Below the pieces are notes generated by a model, which saw only the letters and a program-made list of their open reading frames with translations, was not told where the DNA came from and made no database searches. This document shows, in pieces, positions 42,216-46,108 of a stretch of 64,000 bases of DNA (within the stretch, counting starts at the first letter, position 1; every line of letters starts with the position of its first letter). Origin of the DNA: Succiniclasticum ruminis DSM 9236 (GTDB lineage Bacteria; Bacillota; Negativicutes; Acidaminococcales; Acidaminococcaceae); assembly GCF_900112895.1 (NCBI RefSeq), contig NZ_FONL01000007.1, positions 1 through 64,000 of the forward strand. Direction: 5' to 3'. A program made the position numbers and the translations under genes.

Positions 42216-42411
42216 ACTTTGAAAACCTTTTAGAATACTTTTGCCGTGTCTTGCAAAAATCTACATTTCCCTCTGCCTTTTTCCGGAAGAAAATTTACCG
42301 GCCCCCAAATCTTTTTTAAAACAGAAATTTTGTGTATAATAGATTTGATAATCTTTCGGTTTTTTATCCTTGCTCACTATTTTGATGAATATAAAAAAGG
42401 AGTGGAACCTT

Positions 42412-44400
42412 ATGCTTTCCAGAACATTATCGGCCGCTGTTTTACTGGCCTGTTCCGCCGCCATCCTGCCCGCTTACGCGGAAAAAGCAAACGACGAGTC
42501 CGCCCGGACCGCCGGCGCGCAAACTGTCATAACTGCAGCAGAACACACCAACGCTCACAGCGCCGTATCCCAGTCGCCCCTGATGCCGGCGCCGGCGTTC
42601 ACCACCGTTATCACCGCTGAAGAAATGCAGGACAATCATTACGAAACCGTTGCGGAAGCCCTGGCTTACGCGCCCGGTTTAACCGTTACCCCCGGTTCCG
42701 TCAATACCAACCATCAGGTCGTCCGCATCGACGGTGACGACCGTGTCGCCGTGTTCATTGACGGGCGGAAACAGAATCTGGCAAGCGGTCACTCCGACGG
42801 CCGAGCCACTTACGACCTGGATATGGCACCGCCGGTCATGGCCATTGAACGTATTGAGATACTGCACGGTCCGGCAGGCGACAGTTTTATTAACTACGAC
42901 ACTCCCGGCGGCGTGATCAATATCATTACAAAAAAGGGCAAAGAGCACGAATTCAAATTTGAAGGAGCCCGGGGACCGTATGATGCCTGGCGCTGGGAGA
43001 CCCAGCTGACCGGCAGCGGCAAGGGCTGGAGCTGGGTTGGCACCGGCGGGCGCAGCAACCTGGAAAAACTCCGTTACAAGAGCGTGGACGGTGACAAGGA
43101 AACCATGCCCAACTCCGCTGTAAGTCGGCGTGAAATGTATTTCCGCATCGACCGGCAATTTAACAAAAACAGTTCCCTTAATTTTACCTACGGACACTTC
43201 AGCAACGACCGGGGTCTGTGGTATTCCCGCCTGAATCCCACGGACTACAATTACTCAAAAATGGCCAACCACCTTGCGCTGACCTATAATTACAAGGAAA
43301 ACTCCGCAACGCCCGGTTACGTGTCTGTGTATCATTATTATAACCAAGGTGACACTTTCCGCCCGACCGGCGTCAAAAATCAGGAAGACCTGCTTTCCTA
43401 CGGACGTTGGAAAACCACCACCAACGGCATCGACTGGCGGGACAGCTGGCTGTTGGGCAAAAAGCGCAACCGAAGCCTTGCCGCCGGATTCTCCTGGCGC
43501 CACACCAGCGCAGACAGCGATACGAATTATGATGTATCCGGCGATCCGCCGGGAGGCGAAGCAAACCGCAGTTTCGGCAAGAATTATAAAAAGAGCGCGA
43601 CAAACATCACTGCTTTTATCAGAGGGTCCCGCCAGATAAAAAAACTGACCCTTTCTACTACACGGGGGATCACCCACAACAGTAGGTTCGGCACCCATTA
43701 CATCTCCACCAGCACCGGGGAATACCGCCCGGATAAAAAGACAACGCTTTACGGCTCCCTGCAGCACTTTTACGCAGTGCCGACCCTGGACGAACTGTAT
43801 TACAACAACCAGCGGATCCAGGGAAATCCAAATCTGGATGCGGAAAAAGGCTGGAAGGGCAGCGGCGGCATCCGCCACCAGTTCAGCGATAAAATCTTCG
43901 CGGACCTGGGTGGCTTCTGGTCCTATACCAAAAAACCGATTTTATGGTACAAGAACGGGGACGTGTGGCGTCCCGATAACGGTAAAAGCCAGCACCAGAT
44001 AGGTATAAACCTTTCCGTTACCGACATATTCAGCCCGAAATACAATGCCACTTTTTCCTATACTTATACCAACTCCAACACAGACTGGGGAGACATGCCC
44101 TCGTCCTATACGAGCCTGGTTGCCCGCCATCAGCTGAAAGCCGCCCTGCGTTACAAAGACAAACGCTGGTCCAACAATCTGCTGCTGACCGCCGGACTTG
44201 GACGAAACGAAGGCTGGTACTCCGGAAACTATTTTGTGGTAGACATCAATTTAGGTTACAAGTTCAACAAACACTGGAGCAGCTATCTGAAAGTGCATAA
44301 CCTGTTCAATGAATCCTATGAAGCGCTTGGATCACGTACCATCGGGGATTGCCCGGCGTATGGAAGGACTGCGCTGTTCGGAATGATTTACTCGTATTAA
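42412..44400 (+). CDS. TonB-dependent outer membrane receptor
   Basis: 662 residues from the ATG at 42412, with an AAGGAG site; the earlier frame start at 42370 lacks one. Signal peptide MLSRTLSAAVLLACSAAILP with cleavage near AYAEK. Plug domain about 45-160: TVITAEEMQDNHYETVAEAL, VVRIDGDDRVAVFIDGRKQ, GPAGDSFINYDTPGGVINII. The rest is a 22-strand-type barrel with alternating aromatic residues, ending LFGMIYSY with an aromatic last residue. It imports an unknown ligand (siderophore, cobalamin, heme and sugar are all possible); no riboswitch or clear Fur box is seen upstream that would decide. No tonB/exbBD nearby. Confidence 0.93.
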   Translation: MLSRTLSAAVLLACSAAILPAYAEKANDESARTAGAQTVITAAEHTNAHSAVSQSPLMPAPAFTTVITAEEMQDNHYETVAEALAYAPGLTVTPGSVNTNHQVVRIDGDDRVAVFIDGRKQNLASGHSDGRATYDLDMAPPVMAIERIEILHGPAGDSFINYDTPGGVINIITKKGKEHEFKFEGARGPYDAWRWETQLTGSGKGWSWVGTGGRSNLEKLRYKSVDGDKETMPNSAVSRREMYFRIDRQFNKNSSLNFTYGHFSNDRGLWYSRLNPTDYNYSKMANHLALTYNYKENSATPGYVSVYHYYNQGDTFRPTGVKNQEDLLSYGRWKTTTNGIDWRDSWLLGKKRNRSLAAGFSWRHTSADSDTNYDVSGDPPGGEANRSFGKNYKKSATNITAFIRGSRQIKKLTLSTTRGITHNSRFGTHYISTSTGEYRPDKKTTLYGSLQHFYAVPTLDELYYNNQRIQGNPNLDAEKGWKGSGGIRHQFSDKIFADLGGFWSYTKKPILWYKNGDVWRPDNGKSQHQIGINLSVTDIFSPKYNATFSYTYTNSNTDWGDMPSSYTSLVARHQLKAALRYKDKRWSNNLLLTAGLGRNEGWYSGNYFVVDINLGYKFNKHWSSYLKVHNLFNESYEALGSRTIGDCPAYGRTALFGMIYSY

Positions 44401-44407
44401 AAATAAT

Positions 44408-44668
44408 TATAGAAACAGCGAATTAATTTAAAACAGTTGAAAAAAATAAGCATGCAGGGAATGAGCAAAACGTCGGGAACGTTTGTGTAATTCCATGAGA
44501 TGAAATGCGACGCAGCGGCGAGACTGTCTGAGGGGCGGAGCCCCGAGTTTCGAAGCCGCAGGCGCATGAGTCCATGGAATAACAAACGTGAACAGTTTTG
44601 CGAATCCCTGCATGCTGTTATTTTCAGCTGTTTTAACGATTTATTTGTATTCAGGCGACGTTTCTATA
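44408..44668. repeat. 261-bp palindromic element (MITE-like or structured RNA)
   Basis: Fills the gap between the convergent TonB receptor and purF-like genes. It begins TATAGAAAC (44408-44416) and ends GTTTCTATA (44660-44668), a perfect 9-bp terminal inverted repeat. The two halves match inwards: AAAACAG, GCATGCAGGG, GCAAAAC, ACGTTTGT and ATTCCATG each have their complement at mirror positions, then ATGCG/CGCAT, GCGGC/GCCGC and a central GGGGC-GGA-GCCCC hairpin. The whole would fold as a single long imperfect hairpin. It codes for nothing. A non-autonomous transposable element, or a bidirectional terminator/ncRNA derived from one, are the main options. Confidence 0.75.
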
Positions 44669-44692
44669 CCTATATTCTTTCATCAATGCGCC

Positions 44693-46108
44693 TTAATCTT
44701 TTCCGTTCCAGCAGTACGTGCAAAGCGTATCCGGGTCAATGCCCACCGCCTTGATCATATCGTCCAGGCGGTTGAATGCCAGGCTGGTGAATCCCATCTT
44801 CTGGCAGATACCCTGGATCATGGTATGGTACCGGTCCGAATCAGGATTGCAGTAATCTTCCAGCACTTCCCTGGCCACATCTGTACCTTCTTCTTTGGCA
44901 ATAATCTGCCGGGCAATAAGTTCCATTTCCGAATTAGAGCGGGAGAAGTTCAGGAATTTACAGCCAAAGGTGATCGGCGGGCAGGCCGGACGGGCGTGTA
45001 CCTCTTTTGCCCCCGACTTGAACAGGAAATCGGTGGTATCCCGCAGCTGCGTACCGCGCACGATGGAGTCATCCACCAGGATGATACGTTTATCTTCAAT
45101 CAGTTCATGCACCGGTATCAGTTTCATCTTGGCGATGAGGTTCCGTTTGCTCTGGATCGTAGGCATAAATGACCGGGGCCAGGTGGGCGTGTATTTAATC
45201 AAGGGGCGGGAGAACGGAATACGGCTTTCATTGGCATAGCCTACCGCATGGGCAATACCCGAATCCGGCACGCCCGCTACATTGTCCACAGCATCTGCGC
45301 TGATGGGGTCCCGCTGTGCCATGTATCTGCCACAGTTGTACCGCATCTGTTCCACGGAAACGCCTTCGTAGAAAGAAGACGGATAGCCGTAATAGACCCA
45401 GAGGAACGTGCAGACACGCATCTTGGAGCCGGGTTTCGCAAGCACTTGCACGCCTTCCGGCGTCATGATATCGATTTCGCCGGGGCCCAATTCTTTAAAA
45501 TCCTCATACCCCAGGTTCAAATATGCGGTAGATTCAAAAGTCGCGCAGAATCCTTCCGGCTTTTTTCCCAAAATCATGGGTGTGCGTCCTACCTTATCGC
45601 GGGCCACATAAATACCCTGGGGCGTCATGATCATCAGGGACAGGGAACCGTCTACGCTTTCCTGGGCGTAACGGATGCCCTCGATCAGGTTATCTTTCTG
45701 ATTAATCAGGGTGGCCACCAATTCCGTGGCATTGATGTTGCCACCGCTCATTTCCAGGAAATGGGTACCGGTCTTTTTCATAACGCCGGCCACCAGCTCA
45801 TCCATGTTATTGATTTTGCTGACGGTGGTAATGGCATAGGTTCCGTGGTGGGAACGGACGATCAGAGGCTGGGCTTCAAAATCGGAAATGCAGCCAATAC
45901 CCAGATTGCCCTTCATGTGATGGACGTCATCGTCAAACTTGGTACGGAAGGGCGAATTCTCAATATTGTGGATGGACCGGTTGAAGCCATCCTCCCCGTA
46001 CACCGCCAGGCCGGCCCGGCGGGTTCCCAGATGGGAATGGTAATCTGTGCCGAAAAACAGATCAAACACGCAATCTTCTTTGGATACAACGCCAAAATAA
46101 CCGCTCAT
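44693..46108 (-). CDS. purF: Amidophosphoribosyltransferase-like protein (PurF family, Ser in place of Cys nucleophile)
   Basis: 471 residues. PurF moves glutamine nitrogen to PRPP in the first purine step. The N-terminal nucleophile hydrolase domain begins MSGYFGVVSKEDCVF: the residue after Met, which is the catalytic Cys in PurF, is Ser here (codon AGC at 46103-46105). The rest is family-like: DYHSHLGTRRAGLAVYG, PRPP loop RIILVDDSIVRGTQLRDTT, and cysteines in ARPACPPITFGC and the C-terminal CTYCWNG that could bind an Fe-S cluster as in the Bacillus enzyme. It may use ammonia, or use another residue, or serve another role. GAGGGG site before the ATG. Terminator-like palindromic element after it. 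Confidence 0.85.
   Translation of the reverse strand: MSGYFGVVSKEDCVFDLFFGTDYHSHLGTRRAGLAVYGEDGFNRSIHNIENSPFRTKFDDDVHHMKGNLGIGCISDFEAQPLIVRSHHGTYAITTVSKINNMDELVAGVMKKTGTHFLEMSGGNINATELVATLINQKDNLIEGIRYAQESVDGSLSLMIMTPQGIYVARDKVGRTPMILGKKPEGFCATFESTAYLNLGYEDFKELGPGEIDIMTPEGVQVLAKPGSKMRVCTFLWVYYGYPSSFYEGVSVEQMRYNCGRYMAQRDPISADAVDNVAGVPDSGIAHAVGYANESRIPFSRPLIKYTPTWPRSFMPTIQSKRNLIAKMKLIPVHELIEDKRIILVDDSIVRGTQLRDTTDFLFKSGAKEVHARPACPPITFGCKFLNFSRSNSEMELIARQIIAKEEGTDVAREVLEDYCNPDSDRYHTMIQGICQKMGFTSLAFNRLDDMIKAVGIDPDTLCTYCWNGKD

Follow-up and report, generated by a model that had tools for sequence, protein, structure and literature searches.

What is a 261-nt palindrome doing in the gap between two convergent genes of Succiniclasticum ruminis DSM 9236, and how has it come to look as it does? 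The palindrome lies at 44408-44668 of the window (the whole 64,000-nucleotide stretch of DNA that we analysed) and occupies most of a 292-base gap (44401-44692). To its left, on the plus strand, is a TonB-dependent receptor gene (42370-44400; Pfam PF00593 and PF07715; ORF start uncertain). To its right, on the minus strand, an amidophosphoribosyltransferase (purF-like) gene (44693-46108) was assigned from its Pfam domains, with PF13537 (GATase_7) above its cut-off and PF00156, at 20.6 bits, under its cut-off of 26.3. The first-pass annotation had recorded the convergent setting, the size of the gap, perfect 9-bp terminal repeats and a GC-rich centre. All of these are borne out, and the hairpin itself is imperfect.

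Our answer is that the window feature is quite likely one old copy of a dispersed palindromic repeat, non-coding and non-autonomous, that is confined to one genus, resembles a terminator and has been remodelled by template switching.

An imperfect hairpin built around a conserved core

Folded as RNA, the 261 nt reach -112.6 kcal/mol and pair 77% of their bases (z = -10.3), and none of 200 dinucleotide shuffles was equally stable. A coarse scan of the window placed the palindrome first in fold stability among 261-nt stretches, with others near it. The palindrome is best described as an imperfect long hairpin, because its best ungapped inverted repeats extend over only 19-20 nt at 85-89% identity.

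Comparison between copies divides the plus strand into five parts. At the centre is a conserved, self-complementary 143-nt hairpin core (44462-44604, TGAGCAAAAC...GTTTTGCGAA), delimited by the copies in the same genome and by a 72-copy alignment with covariation. It is bordered by a left arm (44443-44461, AAAATAAGCATGCAGGGAA) and its partner, a right arm (44605-44624, TCCCTGCATGCTGTTATTTT), both of them copy-specific. Outer extensions of the hairpin follow on the left (44408-44442) and the right (44625-44668); these include the terminal repeats TATAGAAAC (44408-44416) and GTTTCTATA (44660-44668). The inner arms of the window copy are flanked by A-rich and T-rich tracts.

A dispersed repeat confined to one genus

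A search for further genomic copies had been proposed, and the palindrome is far from single-copy. A consensus query finds 16 core copies and one 36-nt fragment in the same genome (G000); the 261-nt query finds 15 further core copies and a short fragment. What the copies have in common is the 143-bp core. Where any flanking match is left between non-orthologous copies, it reaches only about 20 to 59 nt beyond.

Ten of 13 genus mates carry the repeat. It has spread to about 16 to at least 40 places in genomes of rumen Succiniclasticum, with at least 40 matches in both G003 and G001. At E <= 0.001 it was found neither in the genus mates G004, G008 and G009 nor in any of 45 tested genomes from other genera of the family. 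Plasmid and phage collections gave no match, nor did an exact-pattern scan of viral contigs. When named genomes were scanned in the same way, every hit was to an uncultured MAG labelled Succiniclasticum, Acidaminococcaceae or Selenomonadales, and most of these came from ruminants. The repeat is restricted to the genus, which we take to be Succiniclasticum in GTDB terms. A search of the literature on Succiniclasticum and palindromic or terminator-linked repeats found no description of the present family, which is, as far as could be found, previously undescribed.

The core is inverted in place, trimmed or absent

Ten sites were compared across the 13 genus mates, wherever the ortholog could be located. 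The core is missing in some species at every one of them, so element-free sites, which the first-pass annotation had proposed to look for, do exist. Moreover, both core orientations occur at six of the eight shared sites.

The window site illustrates the whole range. Its core has the same orientation in G010, G006 and G001 and the opposite orientation in G012 and G003. Flanks match on both sides of the inverted core here (G000 against G012) and also at site L003. Since the outer flanks and their order are unchanged in G012 while the inside is reversed, the core has been inverted in place. Nor is the window copy recent, because five other species have a copy at this site, inverted in two of them. 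In G013 and G005 (L051, L052) the same arms form just a short hairpin that resembles a terminator. By sequence identity G001 is further from G000 than G013 is, yet has the core; the simplest reading would be an old insertion, then loss in G013.

Core-less or trimmed forms are represented by L051, L052, L068, L074, L084, L092 and L130. Several of the trimmed forms retain remnants of the core and so look like deletions; L074 is a partial deletion spanning one TTTGCG repeat to another.

Could the history have run the other way, with a 143-bp element inserting specifically into the loops of pre-existing terminator hairpins and borrowing its arms from the host site? This was our initial model. The arms are indeed copy-specific and pair within each copy, and several core-less relatives (L051, L068, L120) have a short terminator whose arms are identical or similar. 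However, two arm families, AGCGTGCAGGG and GCAGCCGGTAAGGC, occur at unrelated loci, and several trimmed forms hold core remnants. At the L011 site, G000 has the core with long arms and most relatives have no comparable hairpin; in G001, unrelated copies have common arms and ends out to about 45 nt. On these last two observations we demoted loop insertion, and we now regard it as unlikely. A separate candidate, that short AGCGTGCAGGG terminators are themselves a dispersed repeat, was set aside because they occur in only four places in 14 genomes.

Some sites carry further sequences of their own. At the site of copy L006, the G003 ortholog (L080) has a chimeric core whose left part resembles the G012 version and whose right part resembles the G000 version, which suggests recombination or an ancestral tandem pair. 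Three repeat-less species at that site (L086, L087, L088) have similar terminators of another type (AGGATGTG...CACATCCT). Another dispersed sequence, built around GCTGATTAAT...AGCGCTTCCTTAA, was seen close to the ends of genes in several genomes of the genus (L073, L086, L092, L062).

Arms that diverge between copies and match within them

Across the 72-copy alignment, 33 of 48 consensus pairs show two-sided changes. We counted 350 two-sided cells, against 113 +/- 10 after shuffling and at most 76 with partners slid. The pairing score of a copy's own two arms is 14.1, compared with 6.5 for arms taken from different copies (103 copies). The window copy (GCATGC/GCATGC) differs from its orthologs (GCGTGC/GCACGC) by just such a change on both sides.

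Covariation of this strength is what a functional structured RNA, a small RNA or 3'-UTR regulator selected through true compensatory changes, would leave, and the plus-strand fold is the more stable in 69 of the 72 copies (which are homologous and non-independent). Against such an RNA, core presence varies among species at each site tested and orientation flips, so neither strand would be reliably transcribed. Rfam has no match in 43900-45200. Furthermore, the excess of G-U over A-C pairs, 92 to 24 on the plus-strand fold, is mostly gone (33 to 20) on pairs present in the folds of both strands. A selected RNA is, in our judgement, very unlikely to explain the family.

Template switching would account for these patterns. 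In inverted repeats it homogenises arms and inverts the spacer (PMC8604942), and it makes and maintains stem pairing (PMC8794818); one site with arms that match and an inverted core is what such switching predicts. A settled copy would act as a long inverted repeat in replication; template switching would keep the two arms matched while arms diverge among copies, and would flip the core in place; deletions would then reduce the copy to a short terminator hairpin. Such outcomes are seen at the sites above, and the published signature points to the mechanism. We hold template switching to be the likeliest mechanism, not a proven one, because published spacers are far shorter (a few bases, compared with the inverted core of about 143 bp here) and because, within ortholog sets, one-sided arm changes exceed concerted ones (207 to 27, in counts that ignore phylogeny). 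By the same counts the arms are not tightly matched; selection or whole-hairpin replacement may play a part.

Recently amplified copies suggest likelier ends of the unit

If the repeat is dispersed, where does the mobile unit end? The ends TATAGAAAC and GTTTCTATA are confined, among 88 copies, to the window copy and its G012 ortholog, and are for that reason not the terminus of the family. Better candidates come from G001 (RUG097), where copies have recently been amplified (median core identity 0.93 in the copies sampled). There one side of the unit ends in AAATTGAAGTTTGTGTGCC (end A) and the opposite side in inverted AAATCAGAATTTATGTGCC (end B), at a distance of about 45 nt from the core. The two ends are related, inverted sequences of about 19 nt and are found in about 11 full-length copies; terminal inverted repeats common to copies, as in a MITE, are thus present in G001. 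These ends are the likelier true termini. The full unit measures about 230 bp (the 143-bp core, two arms and two ends of about 19 nt), with the core in either orientation relative to A and B. In G000, end A is recognizable within three mismatches in one copy only.

The 30 G001 loci inspected comprise about 11 full-length copies, 8 one-ended copies with a break inside the unit and 4 with internal deletions; the rest are older or interrupted. The one-ended copies are 94-99% identical to the full-unit consensus, with graded breaks at query positions 138 to 203 of 231. They may be the product of ordinary deletion after insertion. A bolder idea is that the repeat is spread by copying that can stop part-way, like truncated retro- or one-ended copies; beside the graded breaks stands a second hairpin family that also has end A. 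We consider part-way copying a long shot; if true, it would give bacterial hairpin repeats a new way of being mobilised.

That second family was seen at L252, L258, L261, L271 and L274 (G005 and G001), where end A is followed by CCCGGCTGATGC...; L274 terminates in CCGGGCAAGTAAACTTCAACTTTT. The shared ends suggest that one mobiliser may have served both hairpin families. Other palindromes, for example TAGACAAAAGTTTCCAATCAGC...CTTTTGTCGTAA, sit within the apex of the core hairpin in six G001 copies (L253, L270, L280, L301, L305, L308) and in L117 of G012, apparently as nested insertions or replacements.

The TA reading does not hold

The first-pass annotation had favoured a MITE-like element inserted at TA by a Tc1/mariner/IS630-type transposase. 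Its MITE-like part stands, with multiple copies and empty sites; the ends on which the TA part was built are not common to the copies or to most orthologs. A classical TA-specific MITE with TATAGAAAC terminal repeats fits a multi-copy, palindromic, intergenic element with perfect 9-bp ends that start with TA. However, apart from the restricted occurrence of those ends, the parent transposase was not found: DDE_3 (PF13358, IS630/Tc1-type), the one DDE family searched, is present in none of the 14 genus genomes. Neither TA nor any other target duplication is consistently present at orthologous sites or even at the recent G001 copies. The TA reading is largely refuted, and we give it next to no chance.

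Other mobilisers fare no better. Y1 transposase (PF01797) is absent from the carriers G001, G002, G003 and G013 and was found in one non-carrier, and reverse transcriptase (PF00078) occurs in three genomes only, where its presence does not follow the repeat. Y1/RAYT, DDE_3 and reverse transcriptase were all rejected because the distribution of their genes does not fit that of the repeat. Because the families searched gave no mobilising enzyme and no consistent target duplication was seen, the case for movement as a unit is built on copy number, on the ends that copies share and on empty sites.

G000 itself has 31 matches to Y1_Tnp (IS200/IS605-type), mostly fragments at or near the ends of many contigs, and a multi-copy Y1_Tnp insertion sequence probably breaks this assembly.

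A probable terminator at gene ends

The repeat usually sits at gene ends, and its copies are enriched between convergent genes, with 32 of 82 there compared with 47 of 220 background gaps (gaps longer than 60 bp, with simple ORF calls and some copies orthologous). Of 88 copies, 57% have a T-rich run beyond the right arm, 62% an A-rich run beyond the left arm, and 44% have both. The layout of a bidirectional terminator, a stem with a T-run after it and an A-run before it, is present as a tendency of the family. From this layout and the enrichment in convergent gaps we predict that the repeat probably stops transcription at gene ends as a bidirectional intrinsic terminator, which lends support to the earlier suggestion of a terminator or structured transcript end. 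Copies are probably tolerated at gene ends because they are terminator-like in both directions.

Discussion

Judged from sequence comparison, the best reading of the repeat would be an ancient MITE/ERIC-like non-autonomous element, its copies being tolerated at the ends of genes as terminators in both directions. How does it compare with known systems? ERIC is likewise an imperfect palindrome of similar size (127 bp; PMC2229807) that is dispersed through transcribed intergenic sequence in a single group of bacteria and lacks a transposase of its own; the same source lists it with 7-bp terminal repeats, terminal TA and duplication of the target. The present repeat is set apart by description: it has copy-specific arms, a core that flips, other ends and no duplication that we could see. 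REPINs and REP doublets also form hairpins, are non-autonomous and show compensatory stem changes (PMC3116915). Unlike REPIN/REP with RAYT, the unit here is much longer and Y1 is missing in four carriers. MITEs such as Correia/NEMIS and RUP are similarly short and non-coding, with inverted ends, many copies and empty sites, but neither the TA duplication nor, in the DDE_3 search, a parent transposase was found here. Inverted repeats modified by template switching share the combination of arm homogenisation and spacer inversion (PMC8604942, PMC8794818). The repeat joins the broad MITE/ERIC-like class of palindromic repeats as a new member, one in which inversion in place and trimming can be followed unusually clearly.

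At a practical level, the repeat may influence MAG assembly and the annotation of gene ends. For this rumen lineage, in which we came across no earlier description of one, the result is a genus-specific family of palindromic repeats. Comparing many species at one and the same site shows the core forward, reversed, trimmed or absent, which makes the family a natural experiment on the evolution of long inverted repeats by what is likeliest to be template switching. The same sites also inform how mobile hairpins are tolerated as terminators.
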